A stretch of DNA of 56,244 nt, taken from contig NZ_CADEFI010000020.1 of NCBI RefSeq assembly GCF_902826555.1, positions 1 to 56,244 on the forward strand, written 5' to 3'. The translations under genes and the position numbers were made by a program. Below, piece by piece: positions 23,501-56,244 of the stretch (positions are counted from its first letter, which is position 1; the number at the start of each line of letters is the position of its first letter). The notes beneath the pieces were generated by a model, which saw nothing but the letters and a program-made list of their open reading frames with translations, did no database searches and was not told the origin of the DNA. The stretch is from an uncultured Hyphomicrobium sp. (GTDB taxonomy: Bacteria > Pseudomonadota > Alphaproteobacteria > Rhizobiales > Hyphomicrobiaceae).

Positions 23501-26500
23501 ATGTTTCAGATGGTTCATCGCGCAATTTTTCTCATCATGCGGGTTGTACTTTTGCTGCTCGTCACGGCGGTTCCATCCGCGGGCGAGGAAAAGTTCATCA
23601 CGCTCTTCAAACGCGTCCAAGAGCTGAGCAGTGCCGGCAAGACCGCCGAAGCCGCAAAGGTGGGGCGGCGCCTCTACGCGGCTGCGGAGAAGAGACGCGA
23701 CCTCGATCCTCTGTCGCGCGCCAATGTCTACGGTCTCGTCGCCAACGCGCTCTGGGACGACCGCCAGATCGAAGACGCGCTCGCGCTCTACAAGCGCGAG
23801 GTCCAAGCGCTCGAAAAAGCGCCGGACGCCGAGCGCCGCTACGTCGGTGTGCGCTATGCCAATCTGGCGAACGCGTTCTACGACCTAAGTCGCTTCGACG
23901 ACGCGGAGTTGCCGGCACGCCGAAGCGTCGAGTTCCTGAAGACGACTTCCAAAGGAGAACCTGCAGGCGCCTACGCCAATGCGTCACACCAACACGCTAC
24001 TATACTGCGTAAGCTGGACCGTCGCGAGGAGGCGCTTGAGGCCGCGCGCATCGCCGTTGCGATGTGGGAACGCGCTGACGGACCGGAGAGCGGCGCCGTT
24101 GCCAATGGATTGAACACGCTCGCCATCCTGCTCAACGAGCTACACGAGCTGGCGGAGGCCGACAAGACGGCGCGGCGCGCACTCCAGATTCGCATCAAGG
24201 AAGCCAAAGGACGCGAGACGCTCGAAATCGCCGGAGCACGATTCACGCTTGCCAATATCCTGAGTGCGCAAAACCGCCTGCCAGAAGCCATCGTGGAGGC
24301 AAAGAAAGCATTCTCGCTGCAAACGGAGCTGAAAGACGAGGGCGCCGCGGCAAACACGGCCAACTCGCTTGCGATCTTTCTCAAGGACGCGGGTCGCGCG
24401 GGTGAAAGCGAATTTTATATCCAGAAGGCGATCGAGCACTTCAGCAAGGACCCGAACCCTGACAACGAGATGCTGGTCAACGCGCGCAATACGCTCGTCT
24501 CCGTCTTGATCGCCCAGGGCCGAGAAACGGACGCCCTCCCGATTGCGCGGGAAGTTGTCGAGAGCCGCCGACGGGTGGCCGGACCCGACCACCGTGAGAC
24601 CGGCAACGCAGAGAACACACTCTCCTCGATCCTGACCGACATCGGTCAATTTGAAGAGGCCGAGCGGGCCGCACGCGAAACCATCCGCATCTGGGACCTG
24701 AGATTCGGTCCAAAAAGCGGAGCGGCCGCAAACGCACGCAATTCCCTGACAAGCGTCCTGCAGCTCCGAGGAGACCTGATCGGCGCTCAAGCGGTCGCAA
24801 AGGACGCTTACGAGATCTGGCTGGCGCAGGACGCGAAAGAGCCCGCCTCGTCGGCGTTCGGACTCTGGAGGCTAGCGACGATCTCCCTGGCGATGGGCAA
24901 TGCCGCCGAGGCAGAGGATCAATTCCGGAAGGCGCTCAAAGGATGGACAGATGCCTTTGGCAGCACGTACCATCGGACCGCACTGGCCCGCTCCGGTCTC
25001 GTCTCCGCCTACGTCCTGCAGTCGAAATGGGACGACTCCGTCACGGAATGCCACACGCTCATCGACGCTTCGGCCGAGCGCACGGGCTTCGGCACGGCGG
25101 AGCTCGGCGGCAAGGTGTCCGGTGAGTTCCTGAGCGATATGGACAAAACGCGGAGCGACATTCACCGCTGCACAAAAGCCGCCTTCCGGAAGGGAAACAC
25201 GGACAACGACAATTCGGCCTACTTCTTCAAGGTGGCTCAATGGGCAACCAACAGCAAGGCGGCGCTGGCGCTCGCGCAGATGGCCGCCCGCGCCTCGAAA
25301 GGCGACGAAGCCATCGCAGAGGCCCTCCGCAATCGCCAGCGGCTCGTCGCCGAAGGCCAGCTGCTCTCCACCGAGCTGATCGAGATCATGAAAGCTCCAC
25401 GCTCCGAAGAACGCGCCCACCGCGAGCGTGAGGTGCGAACGAAGCTGCTCAATCTGCAAATGGGGAAGGACTCAATCGACCATCGTCTGCAATTGGGCTT
25501 TCCCGACTACGCAGCATTGAGCGCGCCACAGCCGGTGAGCATCGAGGATCTTCAGAAAAACTACCTTCGTGACGACGAGGCGTTGATCCTATTCCTCGAT
25601 ACGAACGAACAAAAACCTGTGCCGGAGGAGACGTTCGTCTGGGTCGTCACCAAGACCGACGCGAAGTGGGAAAAATCGGACCTGGGGTCTTCCAGGCTGG
25701 CGCGAGAGGTTACCGCCCTGCGGTGCGGGCTCGATCCGTCGGCTTGGACGCAATCAGCCAAGAAAAATGCCTGCGCGGCCCTGCTCGGCGCGGTATCCGA
25801 GACTGCCTCCACCGGAAACGCACCTGCGCCGTTCGACTTCGAACGAGCCCACAGCCTCTTCACGTCGTTGCTCGGCCGCGTTTCGGAGGTGATCGCGGGC
25901 AAGTCGCTCATCATCGTCCCGTCCGGCGCACTCACTCAGCTGCCGTTCCAGGTGCTAATCACAGCCCCGGCGAACGACGGAAAAAGCCCGGCATGGCTGA
26001 TCCGCGATCATGCCATCACCGTGTTGCCGTCGGTGGCCAGCCTCAAGGCTTTGAGGGGAAATGCACGCGCCCCGGGTGCGGGGCGCAAACCCTATCTCGC
26101 CTTCGCCAACCCGCTGCTGAGCGGAGACGGAACGCCCGAGGATGAGAGCGCTGCAACCCTCGCCAAGCTGAAAGCCGATTGCAACACGGTGAGCGCCGTG
26201 TCGGCGCTGCATGAGAGCACGGCAGATCTCCGGCAGGGCATCCGGATGCTTGGAGGCAGCCAGGACATTGCCGAGCTGCGTCGCCTGCCGCCGGTCCCGC
26301 AGACCGCGGACCTCGCCTGCGCCGTCGCAAAGTCGATAGGGGCATCCGACGACGACATCAATCTCGGCGCTCGCGCCACCGAAGCCCACCTCAAGACATT
26401 GAGCACCTCGGGAGCGCTCGCGAAATACGCGGTGGTCAACTTCGCAACCCACGGCGCCGTCGCTGGCGAGCTGACCACGCAGACGGAATCCGGCCTCGTA

Positions 26501-26899
26501 CTCACTCCGCCGACCACACCCACCGAAGACGAGAATGGCTACCTCTCCGCCTCCGAGGTGACCGAGCTCAAGCTCGATGCGGACTGGGTGATCCTGTCCG
26601 CCTGCAACACCGCAGCAGGTGGCACCGCCAATGCTGAGGCGCTGTCCGGCCTCGCACGCGCCTTCTTCTACGCCGGCGCCCGCTCGCTCGTCGTCTCGCA
26701 CTGGCCCGTACGCGAGTCGGCCGCGGTGACCCTCATCACCAAGGCCATGACGGCAACGGCCGGCGACAAGCCGCTCGGGCGTGCTGAAGCAATGCGCGGC
26801 GCCATGCTGGCCCTTGCGGATACCGGCGATCCCAAGGTTGCACATCCGTCATATTGGGCGCCGTTCGTCGTGGTGGGCGAAGGCGCAGCCGGAAAGTAG
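23501..26899 (+). CDS. secreted TPR-CHAT domain protein
   Basis: A 1132-residue protein with an N-terminal signal or anchor sequence (hydrophobic residues about 10-27, cleavage possible after VPSAG). A long array of helical tetratricopeptide-like repeats follows (about 30-560, with TANSLAIFLKDAGR, NARNTLTSVLQLRGD and similar), and then a C-terminal CHAT domain (caspase-like; about 760-1130). The predicted catalytic pair is His in NFATHGAV and Cys in ILSACNTAAGG. The arrangement is typical of CHAT-TPR proteins, whose roles range from protease to signalling. An extracytoplasmic location is inferred. Neighbouring genes give no functional clue. Confidence 0.9.
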   Translation: MFQMVHRAIFLIMRVVLLLLVTAVPSAGEEKFITLFKRVQELSSAGKTAEAAKVGRRLYAAAEKRRDLDPLSRANVYGLVANALWDDRQIEDALALYKREVQALEKAPDAERRYVGVRYANLANAFYDLSRFDDAELPARRSVEFLKTTSKGEPAGAYANASHQHATILRKLDRREEALEAARIAVAMWERADGPESGAVANGLNTLAILLNELHELAEADKTARRALQIRIKEAKGRETLEIAGARFTLANILSAQNRLPEAIVEAKKAFSLQTELKDEGAAANTANSLAIFLKDAGRAGESEFYIQKAIEHFSKDPNPDNEMLVNARNTLVSVLIAQGRETDALPIAREVVESRRRVAGPDHRETGNAENTLSSILTDIGQFEEAERAARETIRIWDLRFGPKSGAAANARNSLTSVLQLRGDLIGAQAVAKDAYEIWLAQDAKEPASSAFGLWRLATISLAMGNAAEAEDQFRKALKGWTDAFGSTYHRTALARSGLVSAYVLQSKWDDSVTECHTLIDASAERTGFGTAELGGKVSGEFLSDMDKTRSDIHRCTKAAFRKGNTDNDNSAYFFKVAQWATNSKAALALAQMAARASKGDEAIAEALRNRQRLVAEGQLLSTELIEIMKAPRSEERAHREREVRTKLLNLQMGKDSIDHRLQLGFPDYAALSAPQPVSIEDLQKNYLRDDEALILFLDTNEQKPVPEETFVWVVTKTDAKWEKSDLGSSRLAREVTALRCGLDPSAWTQSAKKNACAALLGAVSETASTGNAPAPFDFERAHSLFTSLLGRVSEVIAGKSLIIVPSGALTQLPFQVLITAPANDGKSPAWLIRDHAITVLPSVASLKALRGNARAPGAGRKPYLAFANPLLSGDGTPEDESAATLAKLKADCNTVSAVSALHESTADLRQGIRMLGGSQDIAELRRLPPVPQTADLACAVAKSIGASDDDINLGARATEAHLKTLSTSGALAKYAVVNFATHGAVAGELTTQTESGLVLTPPTTPTEDENGYLSASEVTELKLDADWVILSACNTAAGGTANAEALSGLARAFFYAGARSLVVSHWPVRESAAVTLITKAMTATAGDKPLGRAEAMRGAMLALADTGDPKVAHPSYWAPFVVVGEGAAGK

Positions 26900-30576: not shown

Positions 30577-33027
30577 ATGACCGAGAAACTTGTCATCGTC
30601 GGAAACGGCATGGCGCCGGGGCGCATGCTCGAGCACCTATTCGAGAAGGCGCCGGGACGCTACGAGGTTACGATCTTCAACGCCGAGCCGCGCGTGAACT
30701 ACGACCGCATCATGCTGTCGCCCGTGCTCTCCGGCGAGAAGGACTACGAGCAGATCATCATTCACGGCGACGGCTGGTACATCAAGAACGGCATCACCCT
30801 CTACAAGGGCCACAAGGTCACCGGCATCGACCGGACGGCGAAGACCGTCACATCGGACCAGGGCGTGAAGACCCACTACGACAAACTCGTTATCGCCACT
30901 GGCTCGATGCCCTTCATTCTTCCGGTACCCGGCAACAATCTCGCCGGCGTGCTCTCCTACCGCGATCTCGACGACGTCAACGCGATGCTGCTTGCCGCCC
31001 AGTCACGCTCCAAGGCGGTGGTGATCGGCGGCGGCCTCTTGGGCCTTGAAGCTGCAGCCGGACTGAAAGAGCGCGGCATGGACGTCACCGTGTTGCATCT
31101 CATGCCGACCCTCATGGAGCGGCAGCTCGACCCGGCCGCAGGCTACCTCCTGCAGCGGGAGCTCGAAGGACGCGGCATCAAGGTGGCATGCAACGCAAGC
31201 ACGAAACGCATTCTGGGAGAAACCCGGGTCGAAGGCGTCGAGCTTGCAGACGGCACGACAATTCCCTGTACGCTGGTCGTCATGGCGGCCGGCATCCGCC
31301 CGAATGCCTGGCTCGCCAAGGACGCCGCCCTCGAGACCAACCGCGGCATCATCGTCGATGACCACATGCAGACGTCGGACCCCGATATTCTCGCGCTTGG
31401 CGAGTGCGCCGAGGTCGGCGGACACGTCTACGGCTTGGTCGCACCGCTCTACGAGATGGCGCGCATAGCCGCGGCAAAGCTCGCGGGTGAAGCCGCGTCG
31501 GGCTTCGTTCACAACGATACCCCGACCAAGCTCAAGGTCACCGGCATCGATGTTTTTTCGCTGGGCGATTTCGCCGACGGCGAGGACCGCCAGGAGATCG
31601 TGCTTCGCGACGCGGCAGCGGGCGTCTACAAGCGCCTGGTGCTGAGGGAGAACCGCATCGTCGGAACAGTTCTCTACGGAGAGACCGCGGACGGCGCCTG
31701 GTTCAACGATCTCAAGAAGAAAGCCGTCGATATCTCGGAGATGCGCGACACGCTGATCTTCGGACAAGCCTATCAGGGCGGTGCGCCGCTGGACCCTACG
31801 GCGGCCGTTGCAGCGTTGCCCGATAACGCAGAGATCTGCGGCTGCAACGGCGTGTGCAAGGGCAAGATCGTCTCCACGATCAAGGGAAAGGGCCTCACGT
31901 CGCTCGACGACGTGCGCGCCCATACCAAGGCCTCGGCCTCGTGCGGATCGTGCACGGGGCTTGTCGAGCAAGTGATGAAATTCACGCTCGGCGATGCTTA
32001 CAATCCGGTCGCGGTGCAGCCCATGTGCGCCTGCACCTCGCTAGGTCATGACGACGTACGCCGCCTCATCAAGGCCAAGGGCCTCAAGACGGTCTACGCT
32101 GTCATGCAAGAGCTTGAATGGAAGACGTCGTGCGGTTGTGCCAAATGCCGCCCGGCGCTCAACTACTACCTCATTTGCGACTGGCCGGGTGAATACGCCG
32201 ACGACTACCAGTCTCGCTTCATCAACGAGCGCGTGCACGCCAACATCCAGAAGGACGGCACCTATTCGGTCGTGCCCCGCATGTGGGGCGGCGTCACGAA
32301 CGCCAGAGAGCTGCGCGCCATCGCCGACGTCGTGGACAAGTTCCATATCCCGACCGTGAAGGTGACCGGCGGCCAGCGCATCGACATGCTAGGCGTTCGC
32401 AAGGAGGATCTACCCGCCGTATGGGCCGACCTCGGCAAGGCCGGCTTCGTCTCCGGACACGCTTACGCTAAGGGTCTGCGCACGGTGAAGACCTGCGTCG
32501 GCAGCGAATGGTGCCGTTTCGGCACCCAGGATTCGACCGGATTCGGCGTGCGCATCGAGAAGTTCATGTGGGGTTCGTGGACGCCGGCCAAGGTGAAGAT
32601 GGCCGTCTCCGGCTGCCCGAGAAACTGCGCCGAAGCCACCTGCAAGGACGTCGGTGTCATCTGCGTCGACAGCGGCTACGAGATTCATTTCGCAGGCGCC
32701 GCCGGCCTCGACATCAAAGGCACGGAAGTGCTCGGCCTGGTGAAAAGCGAGGACGAAGCCCTCGAAGCGATCGTCGCGCTCACGCAGATGTATCGCGAGC
32801 AGGCGCGCTATCTCGAGCGCATCTATAAATGGGCGAAACGCGTCGGGATCGACGAAATCCGGCGCCAGATCCTCGACGATGCGGAGCGCCGGCGCGGATT
32901 CTTCGATCGCTTCGTCCACTCCCAGAAGTTTGCCCAGGTCGACCCATGGTCGGAGCGCGTCTCCGGCTTGCACAAGCACGAGTTCCGGCCGCTTGCCACG
33001 GTCGGCCTTCCCCAGGCAGCGGAGTGA
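30577..33027 (+). CDS. nirB: assimilatory NAD(P)H nitrite reductase large subunit
   Basis: Reduces nitrite to ammonium. The 816 residues include an N-terminal FAD/NAD(P)H pyridine nucleotide-disulfide oxidoreductase part (LVIVGNGMAPGRMLE; VVIGGGLLGLEAA). Two BFD-like [2Fe-2S] regions follow (CGCNGVCKG..CGSC and CACTSLGHDD..CGCAKCRP). The C-terminal siroheme/[4Fe-4S] domain has CVGSEWCRFG and SGCPRNCAEATC. It starts 19 bases after the transporter gene, and nirD follows 4 bases later. Confidence 0.95.
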   Translation: MTEKLVIVGNGMAPGRMLEHLFEKAPGRYEVTIFNAEPRVNYDRIMLSPVLSGEKDYEQIIIHGDGWYIKNGITLYKGHKVTGIDRTAKTVTSDQGVKTHYDKLVIATGSMPFILPVPGNNLAGVLSYRDLDDVNAMLLAAQSRSKAVVIGGGLLGLEAAAGLKERGMDVTVLHLMPTLMERQLDPAAGYLLQRELEGRGIKVACNASTKRILGETRVEGVELADGTTIPCTLVVMAAGIRPNAWLAKDAALETNRGIIVDDHMQTSDPDILALGECAEVGGHVYGLVAPLYEMARIAAAKLAGEAASGFVHNDTPTKLKVTGIDVFSLGDFADGEDRQEIVLRDAAAGVYKRLVLRENRIVGTVLYGETADGAWFNDLKKKAVDISEMRDTLIFGQAYQGGAPLDPTAAVAALPDNAEICGCNGVCKGKIVSTIKGKGLTSLDDVRAHTKASASCGSCTGLVEQVMKFTLGDAYNPVAVQPMCACTSLGHDDVRRLIKAKGLKTVYAVMQELEWKTSCGCAKCRPALNYYLICDWPGEYADDYQSRFINERVHANIQKDGTYSVVPRMWGGVTNARELRAIADVVDKFHIPTVKVTGGQRIDMLGVRKEDLPAVWADLGKAGFVSGHAYAKGLRTVKTCVGSEWCRFGTQDSTGFGVRIEKFMWGSWTPAKVKMAVSGCPRNCAEATCKDVGVICVDSGYEIHFAGAAGLDIKGTEVLGLVKSEDEALEAIVALTQMYREQARYLERIYKWAKRVGIDEIRRQILDDAERRRGFFDRFVHSQKFAQVDPWSERVSGLHKHEFRPLATVGLPQAAE

Positions 33028-33361: not shown

Positions 33362-36022
33362 ATGGACATGGCCGCCCCGCGCTCGGTCAAGACGACGTGC
33401 CCGTACTGTGGCGTCGGCTGCGGCGTCATCGCCGAGATCGGCGCGAGTGGCGAGGTCGGCGTGCGCGGCGACCCTGACCATCCGGCCAACTTCGGCCGGC
33501 TCTGCTCGAAGGGGTCGGCGCTCGCCGAAACGATCGGGCTCGAGGGACGCCTACTCTATCCCGAGGTCAAGGGCGCCCGAACCGACTGGGATCCGGCGCT
33601 CGATCTGGTGGCCTCGACTTTCGCCAACACCATTCGCGAGCACGGACCGGACTCCGTCGGCTTCTACGTTTCCGGCCAGCTTCTCACCGAGGACTATTAC
33701 GTCGTCAACAAGCTGATGAAAGGCTTCATCGGCACCGCTAACATCGACACCAATTCGCGCCTCTGCATGGCGTCGTCCGTCGCCGGCCATCGCCGCGCCT
33801 TCGGTGCCGACACCGTCCCCGGCTGCTACGAGGATCTCGAGCTTGCCGACCTCGTTGTCCTCGTCGGCTCGAACCTCGCTTGGTGCCATCCGGTTCTCTA
33901 TCAGCGCATCGCCGCCGCGAAAGAGAAGCGCCCGGACATGAAGGTCGTGCTGATCGACCCGCGCCGCACGGCCACGGCCGACATCGCCGATCTCCATCTT
34001 CCGATACGATCCGATGGAGATGTGCCGCTCTTCTTGGGCCTGCTGGCCCACCTGGGACGCGGCCGCGCGCTCAATCCCCGGTACATCGCCGAGCACACCA
34101 CCGGCATCGCCGAGGCGCTCTGCGCCGCCGACGCGATCGACACCTACACGCTTGCACGCCGCACCGGGCTCCCGCTGTCGACGCTGGAGCAGTTCTATTC
34201 CCTGTTCGCCGCCACGCAGCGCACCGTCACCATCTATAGCCAGGGCGTCAACCAATCGTCTTCCGGCACGGACAAGGTCAACGCCATCATCAACTGTCAT
34301 CTGGCGACGGGGCGCATCGGCAAGCCCGGCATGGGTCCGTTCTCTGTCACCGGCCAGCCGAACGCCATGGGCGGCCGCGAGGTCGGCGGCCTCGCCAACA
34401 TGCTGGCCGCCCACATGGCGATTGAGAATGCCGAGGATCGCGACCGCGTACAGCGCTTCTGGCACGCGCCCGCCATCGCCGGGAAACCAGGCCTGAAGGC
34501 CGTCGACATGTTCCAGGCCGTGGCCGACGGACGCATCAAGGCCCTATGGATCATGGCAACCAATCCCGTCGTCTCCATGCCGGAGGCGGGTGGCGTGAAG
34601 GATGCCATTGCGCGCTGCCCATTCGTCGTCGTGTCCGACGTGACGGCGGCGACCGACACCGCGCAGCTTGCCCACGTGCTTCTGCCCGCCCTCGCATGGG
34701 GCGAGAAGAGCGGTACCGTCACCAATTCGGAGCGGCGCATCTCGCGCCAGCGGAGCTTCCTACGAGCGCCGGGAGGCGCACGGCCCGACTGGTGGATCGT
34801 CTCGGAAGTGGCAAAGCGCATGGGCTACACGGAGGCATTCGCCTATGCCGAACCCGACGAAATCTTCGCCGAGCACGCCGCCCTTTCGGCATTCGAGAAC
34901 AACGGCACGAGGGATTTCGACATCGGCGCGTACGCAACTCTCGACCACGGGGCCTACGACGATCTGGCTCCGTTCCAATGGCCCCACCCGGCGGGCTCGA
35001 ATGGCGCCCAGCGCATGTTCGCCAAGGGCCGCTACTTCACGGCCGACGGAAAAGCGCGTCTCGTACCCGTTCGGCTCTCCGGCGACGAAATGGCCACGCC
35101 TGGATTTCCTCTGACGCTCAACACCGGTCGCGTACGGGACCACTGGCATACCATGACCCGCACCGGCAAAAGCCAGCGTCTGTCTCAGCACTACGCCGAG
35201 CCCTTCGTCGAGATTCACCCCGACGATGCCCAGCGCTTCCGCATTCACGATGCAGATCTCGTGCGCGTCTCCACCGGATTGGACGCGATCCTCGTCCGCG
35301 CACTCGTCACGCCGCGGCAGCAGCCCTGCTCGATCTTTGTTCCCATGCACTGGAACGACCAGTTCGCCTCGAGCGCACGCGTCGATTGCCTGGTTCCCGG
35401 AATAACGGATCCAATTTCTGGCCAGCCGGCATCCAAGAACATTCCGGTGCGCATCGAGCGCTTCGTCGCCGCGACCTACGGATTTGCAGTGCTGAGACGC
35501 AAGCCGGAAAAGATCCCCGCAGAGTATTGGGCGATCGCAAAATGCAACGGCGGCTGGCGCGTCGAGATGGCCTTCGCGTCCGATCAGACGGACTGGCCAG
35601 CCTTTGCACGAGGGCTTCTCGGTCGGGCAAGCGAGCCGGCCGTCTACCACGATACGCAAACCGGACGTATGCGCTTCGCCGCCTACGACAACGGCAACCT
35701 GATGGGCATGATGTTCCTCGCACCCGAGCCGGTTGCCGTGTCCCGCGAGTGGGCAATCTCCCAATTGGCGGCGACGGATCCCGTTTTGAGGCGGCGCAAT
35801 GCGATCCTGGCCGGACGCCCAGGCGCCGGCACGGTCGATCGCGGCGCAACCGTGTGTGCCTGCTTCGGCATTGGCGTCAATGAGATCGCCGGCGCAGTGG
35901 CGAGCGGCTGCTGCACGGTCGCGGCGGTGGGTGAAGCCACCCAGGCGGGCACCAACTGCGGCTCCTGCCGACCCGAAATCAAGAGGATCATCCATGAAAA
36001 CGCGCTCGCGAAAGCCGTCTGA
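33362..36022 (+). CDS. nasA: assimilatory nitrate reductase, molybdopterin catalytic subunit
   Basis: Reduces nitrate to nitrite in the cytoplasm. The 886 residues begin with a [4Fe-4S] motif (CPYCGVGCGV..GRLCSKG), followed by a bis-MGD molybdoenzyme domain (NSRLCMASSVAGHRRAFG, NPVVSMPEAG). A C-terminal BFD-like [2Fe-2S] segment is also present (CACFGIGVNEIAG..NCGSCRPEI). No Tat signal is present. A reductase partner (NADH flavoprotein or ferredoxin) is not encoded nearby, so the electron donor may be NirB or an external ferredoxin. The 3' end overlaps the next gene by 29 bases. Confidence 0.95.
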   Translation: MDMAAPRSVKTTCPYCGVGCGVIAEIGASGEVGVRGDPDHPANFGRLCSKGSALAETIGLEGRLLYPEVKGARTDWDPALDLVASTFANTIREHGPDSVGFYVSGQLLTEDYYVVNKLMKGFIGTANIDTNSRLCMASSVAGHRRAFGADTVPGCYEDLELADLVVLVGSNLAWCHPVLYQRIAAAKEKRPDMKVVLIDPRRTATADIADLHLPIRSDGDVPLFLGLLAHLGRGRALNPRYIAEHTTGIAEALCAADAIDTYTLARRTGLPLSTLEQFYSLFAATQRTVTIYSQGVNQSSSGTDKVNAIINCHLATGRIGKPGMGPFSVTGQPNAMGGREVGGLANMLAAHMAIENAEDRDRVQRFWHAPAIAGKPGLKAVDMFQAVADGRIKALWIMATNPVVSMPEAGGVKDAIARCPFVVVSDVTAATDTAQLAHVLLPALAWGEKSGTVTNSERRISRQRSFLRAPGGARPDWWIVSEVAKRMGYTEAFAYAEPDEIFAEHAALSAFENNGTRDFDIGAYATLDHGAYDDLAPFQWPHPAGSNGAQRMFAKGRYFTADGKARLVPVRLSGDEMATPGFPLTLNTGRVRDHWHTMTRTGKSQRLSQHYAEPFVEIHPDDAQRFRIHDADLVRVSTGLDAILVRALVTPRQQPCSIFVPMHWNDQFASSARVDCLVPGITDPISGQPASKNIPVRIERFVAATYGFAVLRRKPEKIPAEYWAIAKCNGGWRVEMAFASDQTDWPAFARGLLGRASEPAVYHDTQTGRMRFAAYDNGNLMGMMFLAPEPVAVSREWAISQLAATDPVLRRRNAILAGRPGAGTVDRGATVCACFGIGVNEIAGAVASGCCTVAAVGEATQAGTNCGSCRPEIKRIIHENALAKAV

Positions 36023-48790: not shown

Positions 48791-49843
48791 CTAAGCTCGA
48801 CCCGCAAGGATGGCCGCGATCTTGCCCGCGGCATTTCCATCGCCGTAAAGCGTCACCGGCTCCGGCGAAGATGCCAGCGCCTCCTCGATGGCGGTGACGA
48901 TCGCTCGCGCGCTGGTCGGGGGGCAAAGCCTGTTCCATCCCGCCTCGACCAACTCGGTCCATTCTGTCTCCTCACGCAGCGTCACGCACGGCACGCCCTG
49001 GAAATAGGCTTCCTTCTGCACGCCTCCGGAATCCGTGAGGATCACCCGTGCCCGCCGCTCGAGCCAAACCATGTCGAGAAAGCCCACGGGCGGGCAAACG
49101 ATGACACGCGCCGGAATGGCCAGCCCAAACGAGCCGATCATCTTTCGTGTGCGCGGATGCAAGGGGAGCACCACCGGAAGCGGGCTCTTCTCGAAGCCTT
49201 CGAGAATGGCTGCCAGCAGAACAGGATCATCGGTGTTGGACGCGCGATGCACGGTCGCAAGAGCAAATTCAGCTGGCAATCCCGCGATCGGTGTCGAACG
49301 CGCCTCGGCCTGCGCCCCGTAGTGCAACGCCACGTCATACATGACATCGCCCACGAGATGGCAATGCGTGAGCCCCTCGCGCGCCAGGTTGGTCATGGCC
49401 GTCTGCGTCGGCGCGAACAGGACATCCGAGACGTGGTCCGTCACGACGCGATTGATCTCTTCAGGCATCTGCCGATTGAACGACCTGAGGCCCGCTTCCA
49501 CATGCGCGACGGGGATATGCAGCTTCGAGGCGGCCAATGCACCGGCAAGCGTGCTGTCGGTATCGCCGTACACGAGGGCATGATCGGCCTTGAAGTCGAT
49601 CAGAGCCCGCTCGATGGCCTCGAGCATCCGGCCGGTATTCTGACCGTGACTTCCGCCACCGATGCCGAGATTGAGCGCCGGCGCCGAGATCCCCAGCTCC
49701 CGGAAAAAGACATCCGACATGTTGTCGTCGAAGTGCTGCCCGGTATGGACGATCTTCTCATCGATGCCCGCTTCTGCGAGAGCACGCGAAACGGCGGCTG
49801 CTTTGACGAATTGAGGACGAGCCCCGAGAATGGATACGATCAT
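48791..49843 (-). CDS. wecB: non-hydrolysing UDP-GlcNAc 2-epimerase-family protein
   Basis: A 350-residue epimerase of the WecB/WbpI family: MIVSILGARPQFVKAAAVSRAL, HTGQHFDDNMSD, VYGDTDSTLAGALAA, HVEAGLRSFNRQMPEEINRVVTDH and LTDSGGVQKEAYFQGVPCVTLREETEW. It inverts C2 of a UDP-HexNAc or a 2,3-diacetamido uronic acid derivative; sequence alone does not separate these. The start at 49843 follows CGGAACAA. It is the most downstream gene of a minus-strand polysaccharide group. Confidence 0.9.
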   Translation of the reverse strand: MIVSILGARPQFVKAAAVSRALAEAGIDEKIVHTGQHFDDNMSDVFFRELGISAPALNLGIGGGSHGQNTGRMLEAIERALIDFKADHALVYGDTDSTLAGALAASKLHIPVAHVEAGLRSFNRQMPEEINRVVTDHVSDVLFAPTQTAMTNLAREGLTHCHLVGDVMYDVALHYGAQAEARSTPIAGLPAEFALATVHRASNTDDPVLLAAILEGFEKSPLPVVLPLHPRTRKMIGSFGLAIPARVIVCPPVGFLDMVWLERRARVILTDSGGVQKEAYFQGVPCVTLREETEWTELVEAGWNRLCPPTSARAIVTAIEEALASSPEPVTLYGDGNAAGKIAAILAGRA

Positions 49844-49970
49844 GATTGTTCCGCAACAGGATGCGTCCGCATGCGCGCACACGCACGCGCAGGAAAGTCT
49901 CGCTTGCCGCCTTCGATTTCAAAGCCTGACCGGCGCCATCCGGGCAGCGTCCCCGAGCACGGAAAGTGCA

Positions 49971-50897
49971 TCAGCCCTTCCCCTGCAGATGTGAATAGAC
50001 GTCGGTGACGCCGTAGCGATCGTACCATGCAAGCTGCCGGCGTATCGTTTCTTCAAACCCCAGCTCGGCCTTCCAACCGAAATCCCGCGCCGTATTGGCG
50101 GGATCGAGCGCCACCACCGGCACGTCATCCGCCGCCGCCGGCACGACCGGCACATCGATCCGTCCAAGGCCGAGGTAATCCGTGACGATATCGAAGATTT
50201 CTTTGATCGAATGCGCTTCGCCGCTCGAAACATTGAAGACACCCGTGGCAGCACCGGGCTTGATCGCAAGATCCATGAAGGCAAGAAAGTCGCTCATGTC
50301 GAAAAAGTCACGCGCCGTGTCGGAGCAAAAGCATTTCTGGCCGGCCTTGAGACGTTTGTAGAAGGTCGGAATAGGACCGATGGCGAGCCGCGGCCCTGTC
50401 ACGTTGGCGATGCGCAGCGAGAGAGCCGGCACGCCCGACAGAAGAACGTACTGCTCGCCTGCCGTCTTGCTGATCCCGTAGCTCGTAAACGGCGCCGTTG
50501 GATGCTCGACAGGGATAGGTAGCTGCGAGGGGCGCCCGTAGCACAGCGCCGTCTGGAAGTTGATCAACCGGCTCACGCCGTGCGCCGCCGCCGCTTTCGC
50601 CACGTACGCGCTGCCGATGACGTTCGTGCGGGAATCCTCGACCCAGTCGTCCGGATCCTTGTAGGCCGCCGCCGCGTGGACAACGACTTCCGGCTTGAAA
50701 GACGAGAAGCAGCCATCGACGGTTGCCTGATCGGCGACCGACCCCTCGACGACCGAAAGCCCTGGCACCTCGGGCACCACATCGCGCTTGCCCGTCGCAA
50801 AATTGTCGAGAGCCAGGATCTCGTGGCCCGACGGCAGCCAGTGCTCGATGAGGTTCGACCCCAAGCACCCGGCTCCGCCCGTGATCAGAATACGCAT
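49971..50897 (-). CDS. NAD-dependent epimerase/dehydratase, WbmH-like
   Basis: A 308-residue extended SDR enzyme with the NAD motif ILITGGAGCLGSN, the catalytic Tyr-x3-Lys in SYGISKTAGE and the conserved AAAYKDPDDW. From memory it closely resembles Bordetella WbmH of the O-antigen locus. It is a diverged paralogue of the next gene (YKDP, NFQTALCYG, RLK/RLR-G-KCFC, DDVP/DDAP). It follows that gene by 9 bases. The substrate is probably a UDP-sugar. Confidence 0.85.
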   Translation of the reverse strand: MRILITGGAGCLGSNLIEHWLPSGHEILALDNFATGKRDVVPEVPGLSVVEGSVADQATVDGCFSSFKPEVVVHAAAAYKDPDDWVEDSRTNVIGSAYVAKAAAAHGVSRLINFQTALCYGRPSQLPIPVEHPTAPFTSYGISKTAGEQYVLLSGVPALSLRIANVTGPRLAIGPIPTFYKRLKAGQKCFCSDTARDFFDMSDFLAFMDLAIKPGAATGVFNVSSGEAHSIKEIFDIVTDYLGLGRIDVPVVPAAADDVPVVALDPANTARDFGWKAELGFEETIRRQLAWYDRYGVTDVYSHLQGKG

Positions 50898-50906
50898 GGC
50901 GACCGT

Positions 50907-51845
50907 CTATTTCTTTTCGTGCGCGAGGTGCGTGTATTCGCCGTGCACGCCGAAATCCTGGTAATAGTCCACGGCTGCCTGCACGGTTTGCGACAGCGGA
51001 GTGAACTCGATCTCGCCAAAGTCCGCAAACGTGCGGCTTGGATCGAGCAGGATCGACGGAGCATCGTCCGGACCGAGGTCGCGGATGTCCGGCTCGGGAT
51101 AGGTGTTGAGCTTCATCGCCTTCACCACTTCGTCATACAGCGTCGTGATGGCAATGTCCGTGCCCGACGAGAAATGATAGGTCCCGTTGCCCGTGCCGTC
51201 GACGGCCTTGACCGTGTAGCGGGCGAGATCCTTCACAAAAACGAAGTCGCGCCGCGCTTTCGTGCAGAAGCACTTTTTACCGTCGCGCAGGCGCTGGAAA
51301 AAGATGGGCAGCGGGCCGCTGACATTGCGCGGTCCGACCACGTTCGCCAGTCGGAACGTAACGAAGTCGAGCCCGGAGATGGCTAGAAAATCCTCGTTGG
51401 CCGTCTTTGTGATCGCGTAGCTGGAATTGGCAGGGAACTTCGGATGGTCGAGCCGGATCGGCTGCTGCAGAGGCTTCACGCCGTAGCAGAGCGCGGTCTG
51501 GAAATAGACAAACCGGCCGACCTTGTTCTCCTTCGCCGCGAAAATGACGTTGCTGCCGCCGACGACATTCGTGAGCGTGTCGTTGTACCAGTCGTTGGGA
51601 TCCTTGTAGGACGCGGCGGTGTGCACGACGGCATCCGGTTTGAAATCCGCAAACAGGCCATCGACCATCGCCTTGTCGGCGATCGACCCCAGCACCACCG
51701 TCAAATTCGGATGCTCCGTCAGGTGCTCCTTGCGCCCGGTCGCCAGATTGTCGACGGCGACAACCTTGTCGCCACGCGCCAGAAGTAGCTCGACGACGTG
51801 CGAACCAATTTGGCCGAGGCCGCCAGTCACGACGACTTTGTTCAT
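50907..51845 (-). CDS. NAD-dependent epimerase/dehydratase, WbmG-like
   Basis: A 312-residue extended SDR with VVVTGGLGQIGSHV, catalytic YAITK (Tyr-x3-Lys) and AASYKDPNDW. It resembles Bordetella WbmG as I recall it. First gene of the minus-strand polysaccharide group; its promoter should be in the divergent region 51846-52159. With the WbmH-like and epimerase genes it probably modifies a nucleotide sugar for O-antigen or capsule. Confidence 0.85.
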   Translation of the reverse strand: MNKVVVTGGLGQIGSHVVELLLARGDKVVAVDNLATGRKEHLTEHPNLTVVLGSIADKAMVDGLFADFKPDAVVHTAASYKDPNDWYNDTLTNVVGGSNVIFAAKENKVGRFVYFQTALCYGVKPLQQPIRLDHPKFPANSSYAITKTANEDFLAISGLDFVTFRLANVVGPRNVSGPLPIFFQRLRDGKKCFCTKARRDFVFVKDLARYTVKAVDGTGNGTYHFSSGTDIAITTLYDEVVKAMKLNTYPEPDIRDLGPDDAPSILLDPSRTFADFGEIEFTPLSQTVQAAVDYYQDFGVHGEYTHLAHEKK

Positions 51846-52159
51846 AACGTCCCTTTGCGATGAGGGTTGATTCTGCCCGCCGCCGGCCGGAAGCGCTGCT
51901 CGGCCCCGATGGGTCGGGAGCCGCTTGTTAGCTTTACGCTCGGTTCGGCGTGTTAAGTTGTGACCACGTTTTCCATAGCATCTTTTGAAAACGCCAGCGA
52001 AAAATTCCCCTTCTCCCCAAGGCTCCTCCGCACGTCTCCCAGACGCCGGCCGAAGGACGCGGCAGTCCGCTTCCGCGTCCTTGTGACGCTACAGATAGGC
52101 GGAGCGCGGTTCAAGCCTGCGGGCAACCGAAATGTTGCCATGTCCGGGGGACTTCGATA
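51846..52159. promoter_or_regulatory. 314-base divergent intergenic region with a hairpin
   Basis: No gene is supported. It should hold the promoters of the minus-strand SDR gene and the plus-strand fusion gene. A perfect inverted repeat AAGGACGCGG-N10-CCGCGTCCTT lies at 52053-52082 (10-bp arms). It looks like a terminator stem without a U-tract and could be left from a gene formerly upstream. Confidence 0.55.
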
Positions 52160-54757
52160 ATGAACTTGAGCGTCCAAGGACCAGTAGGACAGGGTCCGGA
52201 CCGGGGATTGGCGGAGCGGCGGCGCATGCCACAACTGAAGCTCACTAAGGAGCGCGCCGTAGCCATCTATCTGGGCCTGCTGTTTCTCTATTTCGCAGTC
52301 CTTTTTTTGGCTTTCGAGCTGCGCGAGCACATCAGCTTCTTGCCGTCGTCTTATTTCGTCCTTTCCGTCAAGCGGCTGATGGCCCTTTCGGCGCTGTCCG
52401 CGATCCTCACTCTGCCCGCACTTTTCCTGGTTCGCTCCCGCGCCATCCTCGCGGTCCTGCTCATGCTCGTTGCGGCGGTGCCGCTGACCGCCCGCCGCGA
52501 TATGTTCGTAGGCCGGAAATCACCGTCTCTGGAGGCCAAGGGCGCGCAGCTGATCGCCGGCAACAACCCCTACCTCGACAAAGTCGCGATCATCAGAGAG
52601 CTCAAGGCGAAAAGCGAGAGTGCCGACGCTCTTTGGTCGACCCTGTCCACCCAGTTCATGGCCGACATCGACAGGTCGAACCCTGCCAACGCGCGCGAGC
52701 TCACGACGCGGGCCATGTTGATCGTATCGACGTTCTACGATTACGGAAATGCCCAGTTGAAGAACAAGCGCAAGGGCGGATGCGCAATCCTCAACGAGCA
52801 GACGGACTTCAAGCCCCTCACCCCCACCTTCAAGGCTTACAGGGATGCGCAGATCGGCTGTTGCTCCGACTTTTCGGCGATGCTCGCGTCGTTTCTGACA
52901 TGGCTACGCATCGAAAATATGTTCGTCACCATGCCAGGTCACATCGCCAACAAGGTGTTCTTCGACGGCGAATGGCACTTCGTAGACGCCAACACGAATA
53001 CGATCATCCAGGGGGTCTTCGAAGAAGGCGGGCCGAGACCGGATCTTCGAATTGCATATTTTCCGCATCCCAACAATTTGCCGGAAATCGGCAGGTACGA
53101 CATCTACAACTATATCGAGTTGCGCGAGGAGCTCGGCGCCGCGCTGTTCCGAACGACGTCCGACACCGAGGTTATCATCAAGGCTTACGAGCGGTGGGGC
53201 GAGAACTGCGTATCGCGGCTGCGCGGCATGTTCGCGTTCGCCATCTGGGACAACATCGAGCGCACCGTATTCCTCGCCCGCGATCGCTTCGGCATCAAAC
53301 CGCTGTATTGGGCGAACACATCCCGCGGCTTGTTTTTCGCTTCCGAGATCAAGGCGCTGCTGCCTTTCCTGGATCGACGGGAGATCGATGCCGCGGCGTT
53401 TTCTGATTATTTCTCGTTCCAGTTCTGCATCGGCGAGAAGACGATGCTGACGGATGTCGCCCAGTTTCCGGCTGCTCATCGCGCGACCGTCCGGCTGGGA
53501 GAGGTCCCAAATCCCAAGCGGTACTGGGAGGTCCAGTACACCATCGACTATTCCCACACACAAAAGTGGTTCTCGGAGCGGCTTCAGGAACTCATGCACG
53601 ACTCCATCCGCATGCATCTTCGTGCGGATGTCGAGATCGGCAGCTATTTGAGCGGTGGCATCGATTCGAGCCTGGTCGCGACCCTCGCTCGCGAGCAACG
53701 TCCTGACGGACGCTTCCAGGCTTTCAATGGCCGTTTCCTGGACGGCAAGGATTTCGATGAATCCCACTACGCGAAAGCGGTTGCCGATCAGAACCGCATG
53801 GATCTGCACGTCACCGATATTTCAGAGCAGGATTTCGTCGACAACATTGCCAAAGTGATCTGGCACATGGACCAGCCGAATGCGGGTCCCGGCTCGTTCC
53901 CACAATATCTTGTTTCGAAAAACGTCCGCAATCACGTGAAAGTCGTCTTGGGCGGCCAGGGCGGCGACGAGATTTTCGGTGGCTACGCGCGATACCTCAT
54001 CGCCTACTTCGAGCAGTGCATCAAGGGTGCCATCGAAGGGTCCCTTCACGACGGGAAATACGTGGTCTCATACGAGTCCATCATCCCGAACCTGGTCTCG
54101 CTGCAACAATACAAACCCATGCTGCGCGAGTTCTGGTCGGATGGCTTGTTCAACGGTCGCGATGAGAGATATTGGCGTCTCGTCAACCGCACCAACACGT
54201 TCGGCGAAATCCTTGCCCCCGGTGTCATTGACCAAACCGGAACGTTCGAACGGTTCAAATCAATCTTCTGGGGCGCGAACGTCGGCAAAGAATCCTACTT
54301 CGACTCGATGACCCACTTCGACTTCAAGACCCTGCTGCCGGCACTGCTGCAAGTCGAGGATCGGATGAGCATGGCGCACGGCATCGAGGCGCGCGTTCCC
54401 TTCCTCGACCACCCGCTGATCGAGTTTGCCGCGACCGTACCGGCCGACATCAAGTTCGCAGGTGGTGAGCTCAAGCGCATGCCGCGGGCCGTCTTCAGCG
54501 ACAAACTGCCGGTCGCCTTGCTCAACCGAAAGGACAAAATGGGCTTTCCGGTGCCGCTCAACTTATGGCTCAAGAAGAAGGGCCAGGCGCGCGAGCTTGT
54601 TGGTGACCTCCTGGGATCGGCCACGGCGCAATCCCGCCCCTATCTCCGCAACGGCTTGCCCGTCGACAAGCTGCTCGATTCCCAGAGCGTCTACAGCCGA
54701 AACATCTGGGCGCTCCTCAGCCTTGAGCTGTGGCATAGATCGGTTGTGGACGGCTAA
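52160..54757 (+). CDS. membrane/transglutaminase-like domain fused to an asparagine synthetase lacking its N-terminal nucleophile
   Basis: An uninterrupted 865-codon frame. Residues about 34-112 hold three hydrophobic helices. Residues about 180-290 form a transglutaminase-like domain with the triad Cys235 (GCCSDFSAML), His261 (GHIAN) and Asp276 (FVDANTN). From about 312 (YDIYNYIELREEL) the sequence becomes AsnB: the second half of the glutaminase domain (SDTEVIIKAYERWGENCVSRLRGMFAFAIWD) and the synthetase domain with PP-loop SGGIDSS (about 498-504), GGQGGDEIFGGYARY and VPFLDHPLIEFA. The first ~75 AsnB residues, including the essential N-terminal Cys, are absent, so glutamine hydrolysis is not expected. 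Positive-inside reasoning puts the transglutaminase part outside the membrane, conflicting with an ATP-using synthetase. In Bordetella, wbmG/wbmH are accompanied by an AsnB-like amidotransferase (WbmI), which this resembles by context. ATG 52160 follows GGGGGA. Confidence 0.85.
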   Translation: MNLSVQGPVGQGPDRGLAERRRMPQLKLTKERAVAIYLGLLFLYFAVLFLAFELREHISFLPSSYFVLSVKRLMALSALSAILTLPALFLVRSRAILAVLLMLVAAVPLTARRDMFVGRKSPSLEAKGAQLIAGNNPYLDKVAIIRELKAKSESADALWSTLSTQFMADIDRSNPANARELTTRAMLIVSTFYDYGNAQLKNKRKGGCAILNEQTDFKPLTPTFKAYRDAQIGCCSDFSAMLASFLTWLRIENMFVTMPGHIANKVFFDGEWHFVDANTNTIIQGVFEEGGPRPDLRIAYFPHPNNLPEIGRYDIYNYIELREELGAALFRTTSDTEVIIKAYERWGENCVSRLRGMFAFAIWDNIERTVFLARDRFGIKPLYWANTSRGLFFASEIKALLPFLDRREIDAAAFSDYFSFQFCIGEKTMLTDVAQFPAAHRATVRLGEVPNPKRYWEVQYTIDYSHTQKWFSERLQELMHDSIRMHLRADVEIGSYLSGGIDSSLVATLAREQRPDGRFQAFNGRFLDGKDFDESHYAKAVADQNRMDLHVTDISEQDFVDNIAKVIWHMDQPNAGPGSFPQYLVSKNVRNHVKVVLGGQGGDEIFGGYARYLIAYFEQCIKGAIEGSLHDGKYVVSYESIIPNLVSLQQYKPMLREFWSDGLFNGRDERYWRLVNRTNTFGEILAPGVIDQTGTFERFKSIFWGANVGKESYFDSMTHFDFKTLLPALLQVEDRMSMAHGIEARVPFLDHPLIEFAATVPADIKFAGGELKRMPRAVFSDKLPVALLNRKDKMGFPVPLNLWLKKKGQARELVGDLLGSATAQSRPYLRNGLPVDKLLDSQSVYSRNIWALLSLELWHRSVVDG

Positions 54758-55076
54758 TTTTAACCGCCCCTTCGTGCGCGTTTGTAGCCCTGCCCGACCC
54801 GGTCTCGCGACTTCACTGGCCGCGCCGGTCTGGACGAGGTTGCACACAACACGAAAACGGCTGAGCAGAAGAAGCGGGCAAGAGCCGCCATCGACCGGCT
54901 TGTTCGGAGCCGATCTGACATCGAATTCCCAAACCTATCCTAGGGTCTGGAAAAACACAGCAGTATCAATGGAAATTTGCCTGAGTGGCGCCCGTAGGGG
55001 AATGCCACGTTTGAGGGATTTCAAAAGGTTATCGAAAAGTGGGACACTTTTTCTTCCCTGATGTGACCCCCGTCTT
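54758..55076. other. 319-base gap between the fusion gene and the insertion sequence
   Basis: No gene is supported. A symmetrical sequence AAAAGTG-GGA-CACTTTT at 55035-55051 lies 26 bases beyond the transposase stop and may mark or lie near the right end of the IS. CCCCG/CGGGG pairing around 55068-55085 could form a hairpin at the transposase 3' end. Confidence 0.4.
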
Positions 55077-55967
55077 TTATCCGGGGGCAACTGGAATCCG
55101 GTCGTCATTGAACGCTCCCGATGAGCGTCCTTCAAGCTCTTCGTTCTCCTGCCAGCGCGCCGCGTAGCCGGCCGGCGTCAGCCAGCCGAGCTTCGAATGC
55201 GGGCGATGGTGGTTATAGTCGTGCCTCCAGGCTTCGATCAGCCGCCGTGCCTCGCCGAGCGAGCGAAACAACGTCTCGTTCAGCAGCTCGTCGCGCAGCC
55301 GGGCATTGAAGCTCTCCGCGAACGCGTTCTGCACCGGTTTGCCGGGCTGGATGTACCGCCACGCGATGCGCCGCTCGTCCGCCCAGGCCAGGATCGCGTT
55401 CGAGGTCAGCTCCGTGCCGTTGTCGGAAAGAACCGCTGCAGGCCGGCCGCGCCAGGCGATGATGCGGTCGAGCTCCCGCGCCACGCGGGCACCCGAGATC
55501 GACGTGTCCGGCACCAGGCCCAGACATTCGCGCGTGCAGTCGTCGACGATGACCAGCACGCGGAAGCGCCGCCCGTCCGTCATCTGGTCGTGCACGAAAT
55601 CGAGCGACCAGCAGGCGTTGGGCCGATCCGGAACCGGCAGCGGCGCGCGAAGCCCCAACGCGCGCTTGCGGCTGCCGCGCTTGCGCACCATCAGCCGCTC
55701 CTCGCGGTAGAGCCGCTGTACCCGCTTCCGGTTTACCGCCCAGCCTTCGCGGCAGAGCAGCACGTGCAGCCGTCGATAGCCGAAGCGCCGGCGCTCATGC
55801 GCCAAGGCTTTCAAACGAGTGCGAAGCTCTGCATCGTCCGGCCGCCGCGAGCGGTAACGCACCAAAGCGCGCTCGACGCCGGCCACCCGGCACGCCCGAC
55901 GCTCGCTCATCTGACGCCCCGCCATCAGATGCGCGACGGCTTCTCGCCTCTGCGCGGGCGTCACCAT
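55077..55967 (-). CDS. IS3-family transposase OrfB (DDE integrase)
   Basis: A 296-residue catalytic part with an N-terminal HTH_21-like region ([32 protein letters not shown]) and an rve integrase core. Catalytic residues are Asp in WSLDFVHD, Asp in VLSDNGTEL and Glu in [14 protein letters not shown]. It overlaps orfA by 7 bases in the -1 frame and is probably made as an OrfAB fusion. The C-terminus has the usual [19 protein letters not shown]. The frame is intact. Confidence 0.93.
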
Positions 55968-56227
55968 TTTTTTGCCAGCAGGTCTTTCAGGCCCGCGTTG
56001 TCGATCATCTGCTCGGCCAACAGCCGCTTCAGCTTGGCGTTCTCCGCCTCGAGTGCCCTGAGCTTCTGCGCGTCAGAGACATCCATGCCCCCGAACTTCG
56101 CCTTCCAGGCATAGAGGCTCGCGCTCGACATGCCGTGCTTGCGGCAGAGATCTGCCGTCGCCACGCCCGCCTCGTGCTCGCGCAGGATGGCGATGATCTG
56201 CTCTTCCGAAAACCGCTTCCGCTTCAT
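55961..56227 (-). CDS. IS3-family transposase OrfA (helix-turn-helix)
   Basis: An 88-residue OrfA with a helix-turn-helix ([43 protein letters not shown]) followed by a leucine-zipper-like coiled coil ([21 protein letters not shown]). It binds the IS ends and dimerises. The gene ends at the A7 slippery run where -1 frameshifting would join it to orfB. Confidence 0.93.
55967..55973 (-). other. A7 programmed -1 frameshift site joining OrfA and OrfB
   Basis: On the minus strand the run reads GC[A AAA AAA]TGG in the OrfA frame, a perfect X-XXY-YYZ slippery heptamer placed just before the OrfA stop and overlapping the OrfB ATG. A -1 shift here gives the OrfAB transposase typical of IS3 elements. 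Confidence 0.85.
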
Positions 56228-56244
56228 CGTCCGGCTCCTCTCTA

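Follow-up and report, generated by a model that had tools for sequence, protein, structure and literature searches.

Apparent recent in-frame fusion of a transglutaminase-like membrane protein gene with an AsnB-type amidotransferase gene in an uncultured Hyphomicrobium

The window analysed here is a whole contig (C20, 56,244 bases), one of 81 in a 3.72-Mb assembly of an uncultured Hyphomicrobium that is rated 99.9% complete. It carries an open reading frame (ORF) of 865 codons, with no internal stop, that encodes, in order, hydrophobic helices followed by a divergent transglutaminase-like (TGL) core and, from residue I315, an AsnB-type amidotransferase. On balance, the data favour a recent and probably real in-frame deletion or recombination event, in which a gene for a TGL membrane protein was joined to one for an AsnB-type uronic-acid amidotransferase resembling WbpS and WbqG, both belonging to a surface-polysaccharide cluster. 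An initial annotation, prepared from the sequence alone, had described a continuous frame running from a TGL-like part into AsnB, and both the ORF and the domain scans agree with this description. A downstream ATG (Table 1), preceded by GGAG, was judged by eye to be the likelier start codon. The GC content at third codon positions is 0.777 and 0.772 on the two sides of the join, with codon-position GC alike, which is what one coding frame running through both halves would give. An Rfam scan of the window returned nothing at the gathering score.

The join and the AsnB half

Conservation across the join was scored at columns conserved in at least 95% of 57 full-length AsnB proteins. One of the four such columns in residues 301–314 is kept (the changes being N312R, G313Y and E314D), as are 149 of 153 in residues 315–865, made up of 24 of 25 in the glutaminase remnant (315–401), 8 of 9 in residues 402–474 and 117 of 119 in residues 475–865. 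The AsnB genes of relatives are likewise alignable at the DNA level only from about position 53100 rightwards. The break had been placed at the conserved N-G-E-I-Y-N-Y segment in the initial annotation, and this location holds, with N-G-E replaced and AsnB homology beginning sharply at I315. The sequence at the join reads GRYDIYNY, and relatives that have GR[YF] at this point show GR[YF][ST]I[VI][YF]NGE[IV]YN; the shared GRY may thus derive from either parent, leaving the exact base of the join uncertain. The F-HP-N-P segment that precedes it is more readily ascribed to the TGL parent, judging from the G886 alignment described below.

I315 corresponds to approximately residue 80 of the AsnB protein of Rhodoferax lacus when Cys is counted as residue 1, hence some 79 AsnB residues are gone; the predicted loss of the nucleophilic Cys was borne out, the initial estimate of the loss having been about 75 residues. 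Lost from the fusion are Cys1, the conserved Arg and the N-G-E of the glutamine site, a site that in human ASNS comprises Cys-1, Arg-48, Val-52, Asn-74, Gly-75, Glu-76 and Asp-96, according to an excerpt of PMC6748925. The AsnB-type N-terminal Cys nucleophile and Ntn glutaminase domain are therefore wanting, whereas the ATP-dependent synthetase domain is present: Pfam Asn_synthase matches residues 475–860 with 308.7 bits (profile positions 2–354 of 354), and GATase_7 matches residues 315–401 only, starting at profile position 32 of 123. Similarly, the score against TIGR01536 (426.1 bits) is above the cut-off of 267.1, while that against eps_aminotran_1 (TIGR03108; 353.1 bits) falls below the cut-off of 816.9 because the AsnB start is absent. 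A CG[ILVFM] motif occurs within the first 120 residues of all 57 full-length AsnBs of the subfamily, and the closest AsnBs among the matches listed, from Rhodoferax lacus (71.5% identity), a proteobacterial metagenome-assembled genome (MAG; 71.5%) and Ramlibacter (70.1%), all have the normal start. Since both the AsnB start and N-G-E are gone, we infer that the amidotransferase would be unable to use glutamine; use of ammonia by the synthetase part is possible in principle.

The divergence of the glutaminase remnant relative to the synthetase domain is 0.966, compared with 0.854–1.261 in intact proteins. The undecayed state of this remnant indicates that the join is either young or not biological, and a decayed pseudogene is rejected, there being no decay to the right of the join. 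A recent deletion fusion at IYNY, one of the possibilities initially put forward, provides the best fit to the sharp homology edge and the undecayed AsnB part. Such a break would have removed the first 79 or so residues of AsnB, and probably the end of the TGL protein as well.

The N-terminal membrane and transglutaminase-like part

Hydropathy analysis predicts helices at residues 31–56, 66–93 and 93–113. The core that follows contains the Cys-His-Asp triad of the transglutaminase-like superfamily in its usual order and motif context, and the residues named initially (Cys235, His261 and Asp276) are correctly numbered and occupy columns that are invariant when the sequence is aligned with four TGL proteins encoded near WbmH relatives (five sequences in all). 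Three of these four comparison proteins, the three that were scanned, exceed the PF01841 cut-off. The fusion itself gave no PF01841 row at E ≤ 10 across residues 1–313, where the sole Pfam row at that threshold was a meaningless acyltransferase match (E = 0.58), nor did NCBIfam give a meaningful match for these residues. A single-sequence AlphaFold model of residues 23–326 was poor (pLDDT 44.2), and the best Foldseek match had E = 0.019.

The stand-alone TGL protein of genome G886 matched the N-terminal part at E = 3e-7 in a two-sequence test, with 25% identity overall. However, a protein from G1145 reached E = 1e-6 in the same test, which indicates that the two-sequence E-values are too generous; this candidate was discarded as a TGL relative, since its match misses the catalytic motifs and it appears methyltransferase-like by eye. 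A match from G494 was unconvincing on inspection, and further weak matches to the N-terminal part had E values between 0.001 and 0.1. The G886 alignment runs to the F-HP-N-P segment just before the join, after which the G886 protein continues into a hydrophobic C-terminal stretch that is absent from the fusion (best hydropathy window 1.86). It would appear from this distant relative that the TGL protein lost a C-terminal helix in the fusion. The G886 gene (L063:1150-1944), whose product has a hydrophobic segment at both ends, adjoins a gene for a large membrane protein and is a possible guide to the original TGL end.

Wider searches with the N-terminal part yielded 65 pattern stretches in genome contigs and two in viral contigs, none of which was confirmed, a single phage match at E = 0.1, and no relatives in plasmids, where the G886 TGL used as query was likewise without relatives.

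With regard to topology, the Lys/Arg-rich start and the odd number of helices would place the TGL part in the periplasm, and the synthetase domain, if so, away from ATP. The three helices proposed in the initial annotation were recovered, but its placement of the TGL part outside the cytoplasm is less certain than stated, given the five Lys/Arg residues that directly follow helix 3.

Deletion fusion, assembly artefact or working enzyme

A new protein architecture had been offered as one explanation of the frame. Homologues with both domains were sought and a second example was not found, on which ground an ancient conserved fusion family is rejected. Among the 103 genomes of the window's family, 70, the window's own included, match the query P0001, and of the matches listed none except its own reaches to the left of query residue 301. 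In a set of 111 AsnB-like ORFs scoring above 200 bits (from the window, L025, L026 and 80 loci encoding WbmH relatives), the fusion, at 865 residues, is followed by an ORF of 708; the four with fewer than 450 residues are incomplete or split. By eye, five long open frames (L169–L173) included no TGL part, four of them having a normal MCG start. Nor is such a fusion evident in the best-ranked literature matches, as judged by title and the start of the abstract.

Three observations on other AsnB loci were made in passing. The AsnB-like ORF at L170:1325-3934 (G044) seemingly starts MMAIAGSC instead of MCG and possibly lacks the usual Cys1, as judged by eye; the cluster AsnB of a Burkholderiales MAG (L124:7973-9896) is present as two ORFs of 309 and 400 residues, perhaps through a frameshift; and the ORF at L025:2-2116 (G004), near an intact AsnB gene and ABC-exporter-like genes, has NHL/propeller matches and a first part that looks TGL-like by eye.

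The arrangement of the two partners elsewhere was examined in the best 80 of 112 loci with WbmH relatives. An AsnB gene of the subfamily (above 450 bits, with a gap of −120 to 400 bases) lies directly upstream of the WbmH relative on the same strand in 39 of these, elsewhere in the stretch in 20, and was not found in the stretch in 21. TGL genes, detected with a profile grown from the G006 protein, occur in four of the 80 (L112, L114, L136 and L158), and so appear to be occasional rather than constant members of the cluster. A WbmH relative at E ≤ 1e-60 is encoded in two of the 103 family genomes, the window's own and G006, which belongs to the same genus and in which asnB, wbmH-like, wbmG-like and separate TGL genes abut on one strand; the wbmH-like products share 63% identity. 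Relatives with separate TGL and asnB genes, suggested initially as a comparison, therefore exist in kind, side by side in G006, but the TGL protein concerned bears only a distant likeness to the N-terminal part of the fusion.

The principal rival is an assembly or library chimera, also raised in the initial annotation, in which two intact genes would have been joined in the contig but not in the organism. We regard this as unlikely, although it would account for the fusion being a singleton and for the absence of decay on the AsnB side; furthermore, the division of the assembly into 81 contigs and the ending of this one at transposase genes suggest that the region is hard to assemble. A misjoin would, however, be expected to leave the other halves elsewhere in the assembly, and no second TGL part and no intact AsnB of the fusion's subfamily were found there. 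PF00733 matches only contig 41 (a full-length AsnB of a different type), the fusion and, at 28 bits, contig 25; PF13537 matches contig 41, the fusion, contig 36 in two places and contig 1 in one, the last two contigs not being among the Asn_synthase matches. The missing AsnB start, used as query against the same assembly, recovered the AsnB of another type on contig 41 and, beyond that, only two matches at E = 0.38 and 0.69. Unassembled gaps could hide such leftover halves even at the stated completeness, but their absence makes a real deletion more likely than a misjoin. Nor is the join touched by any repeat of at least 14 bases within 52000–56244, the bases shared by the parents not being measurable. 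The IS3 element noted previously downstream is indeed present as transposase genes, but these start 320 bases past the AsnB stop codon, away from the join; an IS3-mediated fusion is rejected for the same reason. The stretch from 54758 to 56244 was reported as single copy in the assembly, with 40 of 133 first-look candidates scored.

Several points weigh against a recent deletion fusion, or against parts of the account given here. The AsnB part contains no stop and retains its conserved synthetase columns almost entirely, as if in use, and the frame is preserved across the join, which would happen by chance in one case in three. The terminal branch of the fusion's AsnB (0.356) is about twice those of its nearest neighbours (0.167–0.189). 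A TGL gene was recognised beside none of the nearest AsnB relatives among the matches listed, so that the parental gene order was not seen, and the end of the TGL protein is drawn from a single distant relative. The positive charges after helix 3 sit poorly with a simple periplasmic topology, and the link to WbmE (see below) consists of superfamily membership and gene context.

The possibility that the fusion works, either as a combined writer and eraser of uronamides or with a TGL amidase replacing the glutaminase and feeding ammonia to the synthetase, is considered improbable. The open frame, intact triad, complete synthetase domain and uronic-acid cluster setting are all compatible with it, as are the opposite chemistries, amidation and deamidation, described in excerpts of the literature for relatives of the two partners. 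However, the searches made produced no second example, a useless half glutaminase has been kept without decay, the predicted topology separates ATP from the synthetase, and the TGL protein is without the helix that probably formed its C-terminus. Still less probable are the specific schemes in which a TGL-fold amidase has replaced the Ntn glutaminase and passes nitrogen from glutamine or uronamides to the synthetase, or in which uronamide writing and erasing are balanced across the membrane in one molecule. That the N-terminal part belongs to an unrelated membrane protein and has its triad by coincidence is similarly very doubtful; the profile scans, the poor structural model, the Foldseek search and the off-motif G1145 match are in its favour, whereas the triad has the order, context and invariance set out above.

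Gene neighbourhood and known systems

The fusion adjoins relatives of WbmG, WbmH and a UDP-2,3-diacetamido-2,3-dideoxy-glucuronic acid 2-epimerase (Table 1), genes of L-GalNAc3NAcA-type O-antigen clusters. As stated in excerpts of the respective papers, 2Q1W and 2PZK are Bordetella WbmH and WbmG (PMC2279256), UDP-ManNAc3NAcA is converted to UDP-GalNAc3NAcA by WbmF, WbmG and WbmH (PMC3849452), uronamides are made by the AsnB-like enzymes WbpS and WbqG (PMC7468200), and WbmE, of the transglutaminase superfamily, deamidates uronamides in the periplasm (PMC3507681). These neighbours point to a cluster for a polysaccharide with diacetamido-uronic acids, where the expected task of AsnB would be the synthesis of uronamides, in keeping with the polysaccharide amidation setting first proposed.

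Table 1. Features of the fused reading frame and its surroundings (window coordinates)
Feature	Position	Strand	Basis or remark
Fused ORF	52160..54757	+	865 aa; alternative start ATG 52226, giving 843 aa, by eye
Hydrophobic N-terminal region, three predicted helices (aa 31–113)	52250..52498	+	Kyte-Doolittle windows; low-confidence AlphaFold helices
TGL core (aa 223–288)	52826..53023	+	Invariant columns; matches to G006 and G886 TGLs
Predicted triad codons	Cys235 52862-52864, His261 52940-52942, Asp276 52985-52987	+	Five-sequence alignment
Join; AsnB N-G-E replaced by R312-Y313-D314, homology from I315	53090..53106	+	Alignments, conserved columns, DNA edge
C-terminal remnant of AsnB glutaminase (GATase_7) domain	53102..53362	+	Pfam
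Complete Asn_synthase (ATP-dependent synthetase) domain with SGGIDSS	53582..54739	+	Pfam
WbmH relative (nucleotide-sugar SDR)	50907..51845	-	PDB 2q1w, 546.7 bits
WbmG relative (nucleotide-sugar SDR)	49971..50897	-	PDB 2pzk, 504.4 bits
UDP-GlcNAc3NAcA 2-epimerase relative	48791..49882	-	PDB 8sxv, 453.1 bits
IS3-type transposase orfA/orfB	55077-56227	-	Label from orfA/orfB domains, not a database match; contig ends just beyond

Further afield, the window encodes a 1132-residue protein with TPR repeats followed by a CHAT domain (23501–26899, +), and a long repeat protein of similar look, by eye, is encoded close to the other AsnB, that of contig 41 (L082:3275-6523). Assimilatory nitrite reductase domains are encoded at 30577–33027 (+), and a protein of the molybdopterin nitrate-reductase type with a BFD-like domain at 33362–36022 (+).

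Should the deletion fusion be real, the TGL part may face the periplasm as WbmE does, followed by the AsnB tail. The amidotransferase would then be effectively dead, being without glutamine use in either topology and, in this one, away from ATP, while some activity, possibly that of a polysaccharide deamidase, may persist in the TGL part. The simplest outcome would be a surface polymer that carries fewer uronamides and is more acidic. The join is probably the accident of a single strain. It would nevertheless exemplify how the charge of a surface polymer may be changed via one deletion, with an amidating gene lost and a candidate deamidase kept, and a very divergent TGL membrane protein tied to a WbmG/WbmH-type uronic-acid cluster offers a lead to further post-assembly polysaccharide deamidases like WbmE. 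A functional fusion, if true, would represent a new way to feed ammonia to an amidotransferase.

Among known systems, the AsnB half most resembles WbpS and WbqG (eps_aminotran_1) and the AsnB-type uronic-acid amidotransferases, in that it aligns from I315 to its end with the cluster AsnBs, has a complete synthetase domain and is encoded in a diacetamido-uronic-acid cluster; it differs in lacking Cys1, the conserved Arg and N-G-E, and in standing behind a membrane protein. The AsnB of Rhodoferax lacus (L102:18511-20457) matches over the aligned part through to the C-terminus but has a full-length MCGIFG start and adjoins a glycosyltransferase-like gene, with no TGL recognised in the stretch. 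The TGL proteins of G006 (L026:6255-7478), encoded next to asnB, wbmH-like and wbmG-like genes, and G886 have the Cys, His and Asp motifs in common with the fusion but are products of separate genes, show low identity and have no AsnB part. Finally, the periplasmic uronamide deamidase WbmE of Bordetella bronchiseptica is likened to the N-terminal part by superfamily and context, since here too a TGL protein is encoded alongside wbmG and wbmH relatives; the fusion is set apart from WbmE by its AsnB tail and hydrophobic N-terminal helices.
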